A stretch of DNA of 64,000 bases from Paenibacillus amylolyticus (GTDB lineage: Bacteria > Bacillota > Bacilli > Paenibacillales > Paenibacillaceae): assembly GCF_029689945.1 (NCBI RefSeq), contig NZ_CP121451.1, forward strand, positions 6,262,001-6,326,000, given 5' to 3'. The notes under the pieces are model-generated. The model was not told the DNA's origin. It searched no databases and saw only the letters and a list, made by a program, of their open reading frames with translations. Made by a program: the position numbers and the translations under genes. This document shows, piece by piece, positions 49,261 through 56,667 of this stretch (the first letter of the stretch is position 1; every line of letters starts with the position of its first letter).

Positions 49261-49538
49261 ATCCTTGAATAACCTCCTGTTGATAGGGAAGGTAAAAAAA
49301 TCTTTCATTAAAAACAAATGTATATGTTATGACCAGTTGTCATCTTGTTGAAATGTTTAAATGATTCATTTTCTGCAAAATCCTCATGTAATAACATGCC
49401 TTCTTTCAGTTTATCATTGATTGATCAAAAAGACTACATGCCCCATGCGTTCCCAATCGGTGCAATTGCTCTGTATTTCATGTAAACTGGGATATAGTTG
49501 TCATATCAAGAACTGGACCTATGGAGGAACTTAATTTT

Positions 49539-51495
49539 ATGCTGCTGCAAGTATCCGGAATTATCAAACGTTTTGGTGTCGATCCAATCCTGGACGGCGT
49601 GAACTTACAAATATTAGAACGCGAGCGCATCGGCCTTGTCGGTGTAAACGGTGCAGGAAAATCCACTTTGCTCAAAATTGTAGCGGGTGAAATGTCCTAT
49701 GACGGAGGACAGATCTTCAAATCCAAAGAAACGACGCTGGGTTACCTGGCTCAGAACAGCGGGCTGCAATCGGATCGCACCATCTGGGAAGAAATGATGA
49801 ACGTGTTCGCTCATCTGACACAGGCAGAAGCCGATCTGCGTCAGATGGAACGCGATATTGCCGACCCTGCCCAGATGGAAGACGAGAAAAGGTACGCGGA
49901 CCTGCTGGAACGTTATGCGAAACGCTCCGACTGGTTCAAAGACCATGGCGGTTATGAGATGGAAACCCGTATTCGCAGCGTGCTGCACGGGATGGGATTC
50001 GGCGAGTTTTCGCCAGACACCCCCATTGCCACGCTGAGCGGCGGGCAGAAGACACGCCTTGCGCTTGCTCGCATTTTGCTTCAGGCACCCGATCTGCTCA
50101 TGCTGGACGAGCCTACCAACTATCTCGATATCGCCACCCTTACCTGGTTGGAAGATTATCTGAGAGGATATTCAGGCGCACTGCTCGTCGTATCCCATGA
50201 CCGTTACTTCCTCGATCGGCTCGTAACGACCATCGTAGAGATCGAACGCCATCGCTCCAAAAAATATACGGGCAATTACAGCCGTTATATGGAACTTAAA
50301 GCTGCCGAATATGAGACGCAGATGAAGCAATATGAGAAACAACAGGGCGAAATCTCGAAGATGGAAGATTTTGTCCAGAAAAATATTGTACGTGCGTCGA
50401 CGACCAAACGGGCTCAAAGCCGCCGCAAGGCCCTTGAAAAAATGGACCGCCTGGATAAACCGATGGGCGACCTGAAAAAAGCCCATTTTTCCTTCGAAAC
50501 AGCCGTTATGTCCGGCAAGGAAGTACTTCGTGTGGATCAACTATCGGTTGCTTATGATGAGGCTTCGCCATTGTTCCGCAATGTATCCTTCGATCTGCGG
50601 CGCGGGGAAACCGTTGCCCTGATTGGTCCAAACGGTATTGGTAAATCCACCATGCTGAAGTGTCTCACCGGAAGTTTACGTCCGGTAACCGGGGATATCC
50701 AGTGGGGAACGAAAGTACAGATTGGCTATTATGATCAGGAGCAGACCGGGCTCAATCCGTCCAACACGGTTCTGGAAGAACTGTGGAGTGCCTATCCCGG
50801 GATGGAAGAAGCACGAATTCGGACTGTCCTCGGAAACTTTTTGTTCAGCGGTGACGATGTGCTCAAGAAAATCTCCTCCCTCAGCGGCGGGGAGAAAGCA
50901 CGCGTCTCTCTCTAAGCTGATGTTGAAGGAAGCCAACATGCTCATTCTGGATGAGCCTACCAACCATCTCGACCTGTTTGCTAAAGAAGTGCTGGAAGCC
51001 GCATTAATGGATTATGAGGGCACCCTGCTGTTCATCTCCCATGACCGGTATTTCCTCAACAAGATGGCTGAACGGATTGTGGAGCTTCATCCAGGTGGAA
51101 CGGAACACTATCTTGGAAATTATGATGATTATGTGGAGAAGAAACAGGAGCTTGAGGACATCGCACGCGAAGCTGCTGAGGCACGTCAGGCTTCATCCAA
51201 GAACTCGTCCAAATCCGATCCGAGCACAGCCACAACCGAGAAATCTGGAGCGGCTTCGTTCGAAGCAGATAAACAAGCCAAGCGTGAAGAGCGGAATCGG
51301 CAACGCAAGCAGGAAGCTCTGGAACAACAGATTGCGGAACTCGAAACAAAGATTACAGCGCTTGAGGAGCAGATGGCTCTGCCTGAGATCTATCAGGATT
51401 ATATGAAGCTGCAAGAACTTCAGCAACAATCGGAGGAACGTAAGGCCAAGCTCACCAAGGCATACGAGGACTGGGAAGAACTAGCTATGGAATAG
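49539..51495 (+). CDS. ydiF: ABC-F family ATPase (YdiF-like), one frameshift
   Basis: About 652 residues with two ABC domains and no membrane segments. Domain 1: GVNGAGKST, TLSGGQKTRLALARILL, LLMLDEPTNYLD. Linker: STTKRAQSRRKALEKMDRLDKP. Domain 2: GPNGIGKST, SLSGGEKARVSL, LILDEPTNHLDL. A basic C-terminal coiled coil follows (about 560-650, QKREERNRQRKQEALEQQIAELE). ABC-F proteins act on the ribosome. The break near 50913 lies in a CT repeat (GTCTCTCTCTAAG); adding one CT restores SLSKLMLKEAN. ATG 49539 has GGAGG 11 nt before it. In B. subtilis ydiF likewise converges on tsaD (gcp). Confidence 0.88.
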
Positions 51496-51563
51496 TACTC
51501 ACTCAGAACATGACTTAATCGCGTCCATACAATATAGCTGTACCTCATAGTTGTACTTCCGGC

Positions 51564-51591
51564 TGATCCCTTATGGGGATCAGTTTTTTGT
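51564..51591 (+). terminator. intrinsic terminator of the ABC-F gene
   Basis: CTGATCCC-TTAT-GGGGATCAG followed by six T residues. Confidence 0.92.
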
Positions 51592-52124
51592 TGAGATCTA
51601 ATATGTTGAAATCATGTTTCCTGGGATTGGACTTTCCTATGAGGAGGATCAGGGCATGTTTTGGTTTTTGTCAAATTTACTCGAATTGAGAAGAAATATT
51701 TTTATGCTCCCCTCTCTTGTTTATCCACAGCAAAGCAAGATAGCAAGCACATTAATAACCTTAATTATACAGCGGTAGAATAGCCTTTTACACACAAAAA
51801 CCATATTTATCCACTAAGTTATCCACGTTATCCACAACTTTGTGGATAGTAAGCAGTCATTCTATCCCCTAAACCCTTTTCGTTTCGAAAACATCACTGG
51901 TTTGACTTTAAGGTGGTTACCCACAATTTACACTGGATATGTGGATAACTATAGTCACACCTTGACAAAACCATATATCCTCCCTTCTTGCTTCCTCCAT
52001 AAAAAGACAAAAGCAGACCTTTGTAGTTCAAGGCCTGCCTGTTGTTACTCAGTTCTTACGATGCGTTTACAGCGATTCGCGATAGTTACTATTGCTGCTG
52101 AACATACGATCTGACCAAGATAAT
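51592..52124. other. gene-free region between ABC-F and leuA
   Basis: About 530 bases with no convincing reading frame. Apart from the DnaA-box cluster it holds a short palindromic stretch, AAAAAGACAAAAGCAGACC ... GGCCTGCCTG (about 52001-52041), which may end leuA transcription on the minus strand. Confidence 0.5.
51721..51948. promoter_or_regulatory. cluster of seven DnaA boxes
   Basis: Matches to TTATCCACA within 228 bp of AT-rich, gene-free DNA: TTATCCACA 51721-51729, TTATCCACT 51807-51815, TTATCCACG 51819-51827, TTATCCACA 51828-51836, TGTGGATAG 51841-51849 (reverse), TTACCCACA 51917-51925 and TGTGGATAA 51940-51948 (reverse). Three are perfect and four have one mismatch. Four boxes lie within 43 bp, two of them directly abutting. 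No dnaA, dnaN or other origin gene is near. Confidence 0.85.
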
Positions 52125-53677
52125 CTACGCGTGTGCTTGTTCATGATGTTCGGAAGTCTCCGCCTTCAAGCCAGCTGCATTACAGGCCGCTACATAAGCC
52201 AAACCGGCAGCCATGACAATATCATTATGTGTTGCCGTTCCTCGGAACTCACGTCCTGCACGCTCCACGGTAACTACAGCCTCTGCACTTGCTCCCTCTC
52301 CCCCGCTCAAGGCATGCATCTCCATATCGACAAAAGCAATATCATCCGAAATGCTCTGACCAATCGCACGAATGGTTGCATCCACTGGACCCCGCCAACG
52401 GCAGAGTAAGATTGTTCTCCTGCACTTGTGCGAATGCGAACAGCGCCATTCGATCCGTCATGCTGCCCGCCGTCACCTGCAATTCAATCAGTTCGTAATC
52501 CTGTGCAGGAATATTCATGGTCTGGCTAACCATCTGCAATAACTGGTCGTCACTGACCACTTTTTGCTGGTCTGCGGTTTCTTTGAACACCTCATACAAT
52601 TGCTCCATCTGTTGCTCATCCGGCTCAAAACCGTATTTGCGAACCCGATCCTTCAGGGCGTGACGACCGGAGTGTTTGCCCAGAATAATCATGCTGCGCG
52701 GGATACCCAGCGCTTCCGGTCCATAATCTCATAGGTATTCCGATTCTTCAGCAGACCATCCTGGTGAATGCCGGATTCATGCTGGAATGCATTACGTCCC
52801 ACCACCGGTTTGTTGTATGCAATCGGAAAATGCATCGCACGGCTAATCTGACGAGAAGTCTCATACAGCTGGTTGAGCTTAATGTTCGTCGTTGCACCAA
52901 TAACATCTCCCGAGTTTCCAGCGCCATGATCAGCTCTTCCAGAGCACAGTTGCCCGTCCGTTCTCCGATACCATTGATCGTCACCTCAATCTGGGAAGCC
53001 CCATTGGCAATGGCTGCCAAGCTATTGGCTACGGCCAGACCCAGATCATTATGACAGTGCGCACTATATCGAACCTGATCCCCACCTCTTGCACCCTCAC
53101 GCACCCGGCGGAACATCTCGCCATACTCATGTGGCAGGGCATACCCCACGGTATCCGGCAGGTTGATAATGCTGGCCCCTGCTTCAACCGCGACTTCGAC
53201 CATCTCGATCAGATCGTCCATCTTCGTTCGAGCCGCGTCCATCGCCGTGAACTCTACGATGTCCGTAAACTGGCGTGCATACGATACCATCTCACGAGCG
53301 GTAGCCACCACTTCACTACGCGGACGGCGCAGCTGATGCTCTATATGAATATCGGAGGAAGAGATAAACAGGTGAATTCGGCGCCGGGCTGCATCTGCTG
53401 TTGCTTGAACCGCTGCATCAATATCACCTTTGACCGCACGTGCGAATCCACAGATCTCCACGTTCTGCAACTGTCTCGAAATCGCCTGAACCGCCGCGAA
53501 CTCACCAGGACTGGAGATCGGGAATCCAGGCTCAATGACGTCGATCCCCAGAGAAGCCAGTTGGTGTGCCAGTTCGATCTTTTGCTCGGGTTGCAGACTC
53601 GCTCCCGGTGCCTGTTCTCCATCGCGCAGCGTTGTATCAAAAATTTCAATCATGCGTTTGTTATTAGTCGTTGTCAT
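52125..53677 (-). CDS. leuA: 2-isopropylmalate synthase, three frameshifts
   Basis: About 517 residues. [17 protein letters not shown] (metal and substrate site), [58 protein letters not shown], then [13 protein letters not shown] sequence and [13 protein letters not shown] after repair. The C-terminal regulatory domain ([50 protein letters not shown]) senses leucine. Breaks lie near 52913 (one G missing), 52714 (one C missing) and 52395 (G-run, two missing or one extra). ATG 53677 is chosen with GGAGG 9 nt upstream. It condenses acetyl-CoA and 2-ketoisovalerate, the first committed leucine step. It stands alone behind two T-boxes; other leu/ilv genes are absent. Confidence 0.92.
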
Positions 53678-53686
53678 ATTCATCAA

Positions 53687-53989
53687 CCTCCATCGATTTT
53701 GTAATCCTTTTTGTTACGATCCACGAGCCACAGAACACCCGCTGATCGCCATCAATGTTGTTATATATTTTGTTTGTAAATGCGTATGTCGTTTGTTGCT
53801 TAGTCCTTGGTCCTTGGTCTCCATAATGCCTGCTGGATATCTAATGGCGATACCTGATGTACGATGTCCATTAGTCGTTGCTGACCCTGCTTGCTTGTGA
53901 CAGGGTGTACGTCGACTTACACCCTGTACTTCTCACTTTTCAATCTCCATATGGTTCATTCCCATGCCCACCCTGCTGCCGGCAGCAAA
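53687..53989 (-). other. leader between T-box 1 and leuA
   Basis: About 300 nt with no gene. It contains a hairpin with arms ACAGGGTGT and ACACCCTGT at about 53902-53930. No additional regulatory family was recognised. Confidence 0.45.
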
Positions 53990-54345
53990 CACAAATAACC
54001 CGCCATCTCTTATAAGAGACGGCGGGTTATTATCCCCTCCGCGGTACCACTCTCGCTTGATGGGCCAGGCTTGCGCCGGACTCCATCCACCTCGTCGTCT
54101 CCGATATCCGCTGGATGTGAGTGCATGCACAACATCACTGGAATTCGGAGAAACACCCTATAACGCGGGTTAACCGTTGCTGTGTAACGCACGTCGTTGT
54201 CCGTTAGGACAACTGGCGATTGATATCGTCCGCACGCTTCCACAACTCCGTTCCCGGGCGAGATTCGAATGACTCAAGCCACTGCGTCGCACCACCCCGC
54301 AGCTCTCTGAGCGCTTTATCATTCTACTGCTCCCGTTCATCACAT
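53990..54345 (-). ncRNA. T-box leader 1 of leuA (leucine specifier CUC)
   Basis: Minus strand: Stem I opens with CGCTCAGAGAGCTGCGG, the specifier region GAATCTCGCC presents CTC (Leu), and the T-box AGAGTGGTACCGCGG is at 54053-54039. A terminator follows: CCCGCCGTCTC-TTATAA-GAGATGGCGGG then TTATTTG. The competing antiterminator uses the TGGTACC element. It binds uncharged tRNA-Leu to allow readthrough into leuA. Confidence 0.93.
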
Positions 54346-54382
54346 TTATCATATGACCTAACATCATTCATTGTTATTTTAG

Positions 54383-54790
54383 AAATCAAAAAAGCCTGCC
54401 ACCTCATGCAATAATGCAAGAGACGACAGGCTGTTCACCTTCGCGGTACCACTCTTGTTGACTTCCTTCCTGTTCACTCAAGACAACCCCTGGATGCTTA
54501 CATACATCCGGATCACTTGAAGCAGCCTGAAAGCCCCCTCAGTTATTGTCGGCCAGTTCCAATCCTAACGATCCATCCGACAACGGCCCATTCACGGAGG
54601 CAACCCGTAACCATGTACTTTGGGCCATAATCGGCCTTCGGATTCTCCCGGGGAGTCACCGTGTTCCATCGTTCCGCTTCCAGGTGAGTTTCAGGTTTCC
54701 TTCGACTGCGTTGCACCATACCGCAGCTCTCTAAGACCGGGATTGACCTTACTGTTCCTGTTCATCGCGTTTAACCATATCAGGAAGATA
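54383..54790 (-). ncRNA. T-box leader 2 of leuA, upstream tandem copy (leucine specifier CUC)
   Basis: Minus strand: CTTAGAGAGCTGCGG opens Stem I, and GAAACTCACC presents CTC at the position matching T-box 1. The T-box AGAGTGGTACCGCG is at 54454-54441. A terminator with arms GCCTGTCGTCTC and GAGGTGGCAGGC ends in TTTTTTT. It lies directly upstream of T-box 1 and downstream of the only clear promoter. Confidence 0.93.
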
Positions 54791-54813
54791 ACTTCCTGTT
54801 TAAATTTGTAACT

Positions 54814-54843
54814 AATATACAATCTTCACATCCAGGCTGTCAA
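54814..54843 (-). promoter_or_regulatory. sigma-A promoter of the leuA leader
   Basis: Minus strand TTGACA (54843-54838, perfect), 18-nt spacer, TATATT (54819-54814). It precedes T-box 2. Confidence 0.85.
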
Positions 54844-54880
54844 CTCTTAATCTCAAACGGCCTGTTTATATAAACTAAAA

Positions 54881-55098
54881 GTGCGCTCAAAAAGATCGGT
54901 TTTCAGTACCGAGAAGATGGGATAAAGCCAGAAATGAAGTAGCGGAGCCTAGTTAAAACTACGTGAGCAACTACAATGTTTCCGAAGGAAACATACTTCG
55001 TAAGCCTCCCCCTTATTTCGGCTGAATTCCAACTTCGATGCTGATGATGCCGCTAGGCATCATTCGTAATCAAAAGCGGGCTTTTTGAACAACCTCTA
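54881..55098. mobile_element. MITE-like repeat, copy 1
   Basis: About 218 bp, aligned along its length with 56683-56906: shared blocks include AGTACCGAGAAGATGGGATA, CAACTACAATGTTTCCGAAG and CTTATTTCGGCTGAAT. The ends are inverted (CTCAAAAAG ... CTTTTTGAAC). It encodes no transposase. Its right end abuts and overlaps the tsaD stop codon. Confidence 0.82.
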
Positions 55099-56149
55099 TA
55101 AGGACTGAACGGACCATTGCTCCAGGGAAAGCCCCGGATCAGCTTTGGCATCAAATTCAGAGATTTCCCCCGCTGCCATTTCAGATACGCAGCCGCTCCA
55201 ATCATGGCCGCATTATCCGTACAATATTCCATTGGCGGGATTAACAGCTCAAGCCCTTCCTTCGCGCAACGCTCCTGTAGTGCTGAACGCAATCCCCGGT
55301 TGGCGGCAACACCACCGCACAACAGCAATTGTTTTGAACCATACTCACGGACTGCTCGTACAGCTTTCTCCACCAGCACTTCTACGACAGCTTCCTGGAA
55401 ACCACGTGCAACCGCAGATGGCTCCAAGGTTTCTCCGCGCATTTTAGCCTGATTGAGCGCATTCAGTACCGCAGACTTCAGACCACTGAGACTGAAATCA
55501 TATGAGCCTGCTTCCAGCCATACCCGAGGCAAAGGCACCACGTTATCCGCTTCAGACGCCATCCGGTCCACATGCGGACCGCCCGGATAAGGACAGCCCA
55601 ATGCACGCGCTACTTTGTCATAGGCTTCACCTACGGCATCATCACGGGTACGGCCAATCAGTTTGAACTTGCCCTCGGATTCCATATGCACGAGTTCTGT
55701 ATGTCCACCGGATACGACCAGTGCCATCGCCGGGTATTGCAGTTCATGCGTAAGCCGGTTGGCGTAGATATGCCCGGCAATATGATGTGTGCCAATGAGC
55801 GGTTTGCCCAGTGCCATTGCCAGCGTTTTGGCCGCAACAATTCCGACCAGCAGCGCCCAACAAGTCCCGGGCCTTGCGTCACGGCGATTGCACTCAGATC
55901 ACGCGGACGAATGCCGGATTGTTCGATCGCCTGTTCCAGCATCAACGTAATGACTTCCACGTGTTTGCGTGAAGCCACTTCAGGAACCACACCACCGAAT
56001 GCCTTGTGCGTCTCGATCTGGCTTGAGATCAGATTGGACAGCACTTCCCGGCCGTCCTTGACTACAGCTACCGATGTTTCATCACAGCTTGTCTCCACCG
56101 CCAAAATGTAGGATGGTGCAGAATTTATTTTTTGATTGAGTTCGTTCAT
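55096..56149 (-). CDS. tsaD: tRNA N6-threonylcarbamoyladenosine transferase TsaD, two frameshifts
   Basis: About 351 residues. [25 protein letters not shown] opens the ASKHA fold, [13 protein letters not shown] provides metal-ligand histidines, and [17 protein letters not shown] and [16 protein letters not shown] follow. The break near 55858 needs one G ([22 protein letters not shown]). A second near 55172 needs one G in GGGGG; the true C-terminus then reads [21 protein letters not shown] with a stop at 55098-55096. Unrepaired, the frame runs on into the adjoining repeat to 55053. TsaD transfers the threonylcarbamoyl group to A37 of ANN-decoding tRNAs. It overlaps rimI by four bases (ATGA). 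Confidence 0.93.
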
Positions 56150-56667
56150 GAATCCAGTACGCTTCCTTCCTCTTCGCCGCTCCGGCCTGCAGACGGCAAG
56201 TTCGCCCACATAATCATCGCATCTTCCCCATTATCGGAGTAATACCCTTTACGAAGACCCGCCGATTCAAACCCTTTTTTCTGATATAAACGCTGAGCTA
56301 TGGTGTTCGAGACTCTGACCTCCAGCGTCATTCGTTCCATTCCGAGATAAGCCGCTGTACTCATTAATTCATCCAGCAGCTTTTCGCCAAGCTTGCGTCC
56401 ACGATACGCACCTCTGACTGCAATATTGGTAATATGGGCTTCATCCATAATTGTCCACATTCCGGCATAACCAATAGCTTTACCTTCCAATTCCATCACC
56501 ATATATTTAGCAAAATGATTGTGTGTCAATTCATTTTGAAATGCTTCTTCCGTCCAGGGCAGGGTAAAGGCCTCATGTTCAATCTCCATCACATCGGGAA
56601 TATCCGCGAGTGTCATGAACCTGAACTGAAGCGATGCTTCCTGCTTGTTATTCGCCACGTTGTCCAT
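56146..56667 (-). CDS. rimI: [ribosomal protein S18]-alanine N-acetyltransferase RimI
   Basis: 173 residues of GNAT fold. [56 protein letters not shown] (acetyl-CoA loop) and [29 protein letters not shown] are RimI motifs. AAGGGGGAAG precedes the ATG. It is flanked by tsaB and tsaD, the usual Firmicute order. A MITE-like repeat now fills the gap to tsaB. Confidence 0.92.

Follow-up and report, generated by a model that had tools for sequence, protein, structure and literature searches.

A DnaA-box array between ydiF and tsaD, conserved across the phylum in place, polarity and helical spacing, is probably an old replication-control site

Introduction

What would a tight group of DnaA boxes do in gene-free DNA far from the replication genes? 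The question arises from a site in the window, the 64-kb stretch of Paenibacillus amylolyticus DNA analysed here, for which the first-pass annotation had pointed to a similar DnaA cluster in the gcp(tsaD)–ydiF gap of B. subtilis. That precedent is confirmed. The B. subtilis region downstream of gcp and ydiF is reported as one of eight high-affinity DnaA regions, with 10 boxes, a Kd of 0.15 uM for ATP-DnaA and of 0.33 uM for ADP-DnaA, and a 16-fold difference between the two forms at 55 nM (PMC4447404). Early initiation is reported for B. subtilis without a set of six oriC-distal clusters (PMC13220808, PMC5295017), and the gcp/ydiF cluster of PMC4447404 is taken to be one of these six. Among the literature naming both DnaA and ydiF, PMC4447404 alone treats this site, as judged from titles and abstracts. 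The literature searched, to which the primary papers Okumura 2012 and Ishikawa 2007 did not belong, contained no earlier remark on conservation of the array and nothing on Paenibacillus DnaA boxes. The B. subtilis site itself is known; new here is the conservation of the array far past neighbouring genera.

A dense array between two convergent terminator-like hairpins

The array spans 51721–51948 of the window and contains seven boxes, three exact and four with one mismatch; all seven matches that the first-pass annotation had placed within 228 bp were recovered. The outer box P (51721–51729, + strand, exact) lies 107 bp 5′ of the core box C3 (51828–51836, + strand, exact). C3 is abutted, at a 9-bp step, by C2 (51819–51827, + strand, one mismatch), and C1 (51807–51815, + strand, one mismatch) precedes C2 by 12 bp. 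A reverse box (51841–51849, − strand, one mismatch), also present in nine other same-genus loci read, completes the four boxes on both strands within 43 bp (51807–51849) that had been described. Box D1 (51917–51925, + strand, one mismatch) lies 89 bp 3′ of C3, and D2 (51940–51948, − strand, exact) follows 23 bp past D1 and 112 bp past C3. Between the core and D1, a degenerate box-like element, CTATCCCCT (51862–51870, + strand), recurs in relatives and is possibly a weak DnaA box.

The window holds 36 DnaA-box sites at no more than one mismatch, compared with a mean of 16.9 and a maximum of 28 in 100 dinucleotide shuffles. Its densest 228 bp contains the seven boxes, whereas 200 Markov-1 random 64-kb sequences never contained more than three in such a stretch. 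The Poisson estimate for a seven-box group, based on the window's own background, is about 1.5e-6 per 64 kb and 1.6e-4 per genome.

On one side the array is bordered by ydiF (49521–51495, + strand), read in two overlapping frames with an ABC-F protein as best NCBIfam match, and on the other by leuA (2-isopropylmalate synthase; 52342–53686, − strand) and tsaD (gcp; 55053–56209, − strand), both detected as pieces of a broken frame and named from their best NCBIfam matches. The ydiF, leuA and tsaD pieces score below the curated NCBIfam equivalog cut-offs because their frames are broken, whereas moaC scores above its cut-off. An intrinsic-terminator-like hairpin stands 3′ of ydiF, before the array (51561–51585, + strand), and another stands 3′ of leuA, facing the array (52011–52040, − strand), and the array sits between these two convergent hairpins, one on the ydiF side and one on the leuA–tsaD side. 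The gene names given in the first-pass annotation agree with the best NCBIfam matches. T-boxes, which had been supposed beside leuA, did not appear in the Rfam scan of 51000–56500, where no match reached the gathering threshold. A promoter-linked transcription-factor site was rejected because both flanking genes end at the array; three promoter-like matches were found, compared with a shuffled mean of 1.9.

In the genome of the window, ydiF, leuA, tsaD and dnaA (the last in locus L019) are each split over frames, which looks like indel-prone sequencing rather than true gene loss. The ydiF, tsaD and dnaA frames of the relatives listed are open, and ydiF of the closest relative is open across 690 codons.

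The array corresponds to the B. subtilis gcp/ydiF cluster, with which it is orthologous in position. Both are clusters of many DnaA boxes in gene-free DNA between the 3′ ends of ydiF and tsaD (gcp). They differ in that leuA is inserted on the tsaD side of the window's array, and in box number, with seven boxes at no more than one mismatch in the window and 10 PSSM sites reported for B. subtilis.

Conservation within the family

Anchored on the C-terminus of YdiF, the family survey searched 98 genomes, from which 87 loci were then examined; left out were G306, with only a weak ydiF match, and G373, G331, G341, G335, G367, G352, G319, G344, G360 and G326. The stretch scanned after ydiF was 3 kb, but only about 1.5 kb in 27 of the 87 loci and 1.2 kb in one. 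At least four boxes within 300 bp were found no further than 3 kb past ydiF in 74 of the 87 loci, whereas 40 permuted 9-mers reached a mean of 0.03 and a maximum of one locus. The other 13 loci have no array in the stretch read after ydiF. Seven of them show elsewhere, further downstream or on another contig, a strict pattern defined as abutting C2–C3 followed by reverse D2, and six do not. In the two surroundings of a displaced array that were read (L236 and L240), leuA is close to the array.

The strict pattern occurs in 47 of the 98 family genomes and in 18 of 20 genomes of the genus, at one place each, with overlapping matches counting double in five of the family genomes; the controls (reversed pattern in the family) gave none in either set. 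At the loci themselves, abutting C2–C3 with a reverse D2 was found in 68 of 87, belonging to 12 genera. The layout is nearly identical in ten same-genus loci, even where 1.2–1.6 kb of extra DNA lies between ydiF and the array. The boxes are also better preserved than the DNA between them: in four genera the fraction of invariant columns is 0.92, 0.93, 0.81 and 0.81 in boxes versus 0.51, 0.42, 0.19 and 0.15 in the respective spacers. By eye, a degenerate TGAAAAA..TATCCCC recurs between C3 and D1 in relatives, and many of them have elements similar to 51862–51870 at a C3 offset of about +26 or +35, often after TGAAAAA. One genome, G309 (L131; C9:20149–20268), has a five-box group right after ydiF and a strict-pattern match about 6 kb downstream, perhaps two copies of the array.

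Conservation in the class and across the phylum

For the rest of the class, 6 kb was read at each of 60 tsaD loci, taken from the best-scoring tsaD matches listed and representing 58 genera of other families, with two genera included twice among the loci counted as genera. For other classes of the phylum, one tsaD locus was taken per family from the best-scoring matches listed, giving 60 families, and boxes were sought within 2.5 kb. Groups with a lower-scoring TsaD are under-represented in both sets because of this choice.

In the class, at least four boxes lie on the 3′ side of tsaD in 50 of the 60 best-scoring loci listed (permuted-motif maximum, one). Most of these arrays (43 of 50) begin within 300 bp of the tsaD stop, six of the 43 inside the last part of tsaD itself. 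Named examples with at least four boxes include Neobacillus, Anoxybacillus, Planococcus, Lysinibacillus piscis, Halobacillus, Brevibacillus and Kroppenstedtia. Among the named loci L241–L268, 23 of 28 have an array of at least four boxes; of the other five, two have three boxes, two have none and one offers only 260 bp downstream. On the upstream side of tsaD, at least four boxes occur once (L285) in the 80 named loci.

Outside the class, at least four boxes were found in 32 of 60 families and at least three in 40 of 60, again among the best-scoring loci listed, with control maxima of 0 and 3, respectively. Of the 40 loci with at least three boxes, 23 have the array starting no more than 60 bp from the tsaD stop and nine have it starting over 400 bp from that stop. 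Just three of the 60 loci carry an ABC-F gene within 2.5 kb of tsaD, so that outside the class the array accompanies tsaD, not ydiF. Five of the named loci L277–L320 have at least four boxes: Thermincola, Thermosyntropha, Thermovorax, a Firmicutes MAG and a Clostridiaceae MAG. A 30-base triplet pattern was absent from the genomes of all six non-Bacilli loci searched for it, but this pattern is too strict, because it allows its three boxes a single order and a single step. In other phyla (Chloroflexi, Actinobacteria, Thermosipho and others), all 18 named loci have at most one box, two of them with less than 200 bp downstream.

Among the named loci, the array is absent at tsaD in Streptococcus (none of four) and lactobacilli (none of two), as well as in Exiguobacterium, Marinococcus and locus L278. 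None of the eight loci L269–L276 has it; these comprise the four streptococci, the two lactobacilli, Bavariicoccus and an Erysipelotrichaceae MAG, and are likely a set of array losses.

The first-pass annotation had proposed a site that kept its position across genera. The family, the class and other classes of the phylum all conserve its position, polarity and spacing, and the possibility that box number or position would vary freely among relatives clearly fails. The array occupies the same place in genera intermediate between the window's organism and B. subtilis, which was not itself among the loci compared. That some lineages have no array would suit a chance cluster or a neutral relic. 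The permuted-motif and random-sequence controls and the stronger conservation of boxes than of spacers speak against either, leaving this explanation a negligible probability; a chance cluster was rejected by the controls in the window, the family, the class and the other classes alike. The array is probably an old replication-control site.

Comparison with bacterial origins

The array shares clustered DnaA boxes with a bacterial oriC, and these lie in AT-rich DNA, with 36% G+C in the array compared with 47% in the window, as might be expected of a former or cryptic second origin. It differs from an oriC in two respects. No DnaA-trio-like triplet run is present near the array, whereas locus L018, beside dnaA, has one; and such runs are rare at the arrays of relatives (1 of 74 in the family, 2 of 50 in the class, 2 of 32 in other classes). 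Nor is dnaA nearby: it lies at C1:1.060 Mb of the 6.82-Mb contig, 1.57 Mb or 23% of the chromosome from the array if the contig is circular, in keeping with the earlier statement that no dnaA is close. A second origin, for which we see almost no probability, was rejected on the lack of a DnaA-trio-like run at the array and its rarity in relatives.

Helical spacing and polarity

In the family, key distances between boxes step by about one helical turn. C3 and D2 are separated by 101–104, 111–115 or 122–124 bp, and the distances from P to C3 cluster at 106–107, 114–117, 126–128 and 135–136 bp, with a few at 103 and 138–139 bp; the latter list takes in every upstream box 95–145 bp before C3 and pools inner and outer P boxes. 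The best periods are about 10.4 bp for P–C3 and about 10.3 bp for C3–D2, and none of 2000 uniform draws was as strong. The generic period test, applied to the family set alone, gave R of only 0.28–0.30 in the range of 9.5–12 bp (jitter maxima 0.20–0.25), with a peak at 9.1–9.6 bp.

Same-strand spacings in the class peak at 9, 12, 21–22, 42–43, 54 and 63 bp, and those of 9, 12, 42, 54 and 63 bp exceed the jitter maximum, whereas 21, 43 and 51 bp stay below it. The corresponding period over 15–120 bp is 10.9–11.0 bp (R 0.60, 28 families, jitter maximum 0.19). Other classes gave a period of 11.0 bp (R 0.51, 38 families, jitter maximum 0.24), although over 25–130 bp their best period is instead 9.2 bp, with R(10.9) of 0.40. 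Their spacings of 9, 12, 21, 42 and 43 bp lie above the jitter maximum and those of 51, 54 and 63 bp below; in 40 families, the 9-bp step occurs in 32, the 12-bp step in 17 and the 21-bp step in 20. The Rayleigh values have families or genus-values as units but do not distinguish inheritance from repeated selection; they indicate preservation of spacings in whole turns, without telling how often these spacings arose. The best period in the class and other classes is 10.9–11.0 bp rather than 10.5 bp, perhaps owing to supercoiled DNA or to the pitch of a DnaA complex.

The boxes mostly share one polarity. In other classes, 199 of 217 boxes read against tsaD and form the majority in 39 of 40 loci; in the class, the figures are 242 of 320 boxes and 45 of 50 loci. 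DnaA boxes in E. coli block transcription in an orientation-dependent manner, and this polarity would suit a transcription roadblock, in which DnaA bound to boxes facing the polymerase would stop or reduce transcription running from tsaD (or leuA) into the gene opposite. Just 2 of 31 other-class arrays near tsaD are preceded by a detectable hairpin terminator, so the array could itself serve as a terminator there, but 21 of 43 class loci have such a hairpin between tsaD and the array (shuffled controls, 0 in both sets), and in the window both neighbours own a terminator-like hairpin. Moreover, a roadblock needs neither helical spacing nor a strong preference for ATP-DnaA. We regard it as improbable overall; it may still apply outside the class, where terminators are scarce on both sides of the array (0 of 31 facing, 2 of 31 on the tsaD side).

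Proposed function

Place, polarity and helical phase are kept while the spacers drift, which points to a structure assembled by protein, with DnaA the obvious protein. Given the B. subtilis data, the simplest function would be sequestration of ATP-DnaA after the site has been replicated, and we consider it likely that the array is an old DnaA nucleoprotein site that restrains initiation in this way. Boxes of mostly the same polarity on one face of the helix would allow cooperative binding of DnaA, and of ATP-DnaA in particular, in the form of an ordered oligomer. The fork would copy the array some time after initiation, doubling the number of such sites, and the doubled sites would draw ATP-DnaA away from oriC and delay re-initiation. 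For this organism we infer the binding of DnaA, the ordered oligomer and the effect on timing from the DNA and from the B. subtilis precedent. Titration alone explains the conservation poorly, because a pure sink needs no fixed spacing, polarity or place.

An ordered array might instead alter the nucleotide state of DnaA, by hydrolysis or exchange and perhaps with a partner protein, as a switch resembling datA or DARS. IHF or Fis sites lie within these E. coli elements. The E. coli datA, DARS1 and DARS2 are non-coding, oriC-distal regions that act on DnaA and have a conserved relative distance from oriC (PMC5010248). The array resembles them as a non-coding, oriC-distal, DnaA-related region, shielded in the window by its two terminator-like hairpins. 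It differs in that theirs is a nucleotide switch working with partner proteins, whereas such activity of the array is hypothetical, and no shared ancestry is implied. An architecture, position and polarity conserved across the phylum suit a machine better than a sink, and the B. subtilis site strongly prefers ATP-DnaA (PMC4447404). In B. subtilis, which is described as lacking Hda, datA, DARS and also IHF, the ATP/ADP-DnaA balance is left open by the review (PMC13220808). Shielding by terminators also suits a switch, because transcription through datA or DARS harms their function (PMC5010248). Such shielding is not general, however: a facing terminator lies within 200 bp of the array in 24 of 74 loci in the family, 5 of 43 in the class and 0 of 31 in other classes (shuffled control, 1 in the family). 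In addition, YabA and Soj target the assembly of DnaA instead (PMC5295017). A switch is a rather unlikely account of the array, and ATP-DnaA sequestration stays our preferred reading.

With B. subtilis lacking Hda, datA and DARS, its balance of active and inactive DnaA is an open question (PMC13220808), and a non-coding array that has held its place, polarity and helical phase throughout the phylum is a candidate for a missing part of that balance. It is possible, and we put it forward tentatively, that the ancestor of the phylum passed on a single oriC-distal, helix-phased and mostly single-polarity DnaA element 3′ of tsaD that truly regulates the DnaA cycle, as the Gram-positive equivalent of datA/DARS and not just a sink. 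As a single site of 230 bp, the array gives precise and cheap tests of its function.

Distances from dnaA were taken on the anchor gene in 57 genomes, in all of which dnaA was placed, with chromosome lengths partly rounded; in the class genomes G193, G210, G211, G247 and G273 the array itself was not read. In 26 family members the anchor gene (ydiF) and dnaA are 12.7–26.9% of the chromosome apart. The range is 5.3–35.5% in 23 genomes of the class (anchor tsaD), with 18 below 15%, and 7.7–35.0% in eight genomes of other classes. The class exceptions are five genomes of one genus (g12), at 24.9–35.5%. Given these ranges, the site is usually, but not strictly, origin-proximal, and this tendency may simply follow the location of the anchor gene itself.

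Other DnaA-box groups of the genome

A second cluster away from oriC, at C1:434,500–434,750 (L007/L008), has five boxes between genes that by eye are CheW-like and peptidase-like. Twenty genomes were searched for it; among the 11 with the neighbouring gene, own genome included, seven have at least four boxes there and the remaining four at most one. This suggests that the DnaA clusters within a genome are not all of one kind: the cluster at tsaD/ydiF looks ancient, and the one at C1:434.6 kb occurs in part of the genus only.

The box layout at the dnaA-side loci L019 and L022 is unlike that of the tsaD/ydiF array. Between dnaA and rnpA (C1:1,060,000–1,067,400; L018–L023) lie genes that by eye resemble a sugar kinase, a GntR-type regulator and a permease, and with these genes in between, several kb separate the DnaA-box groups around the origin. 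Over the 1.5 kb that precede rnpA, the maximum per 300 bp is 3–5 boxes in 13 of 20 genus genomes, own genome included, and 6–8 boxes in the other seven.
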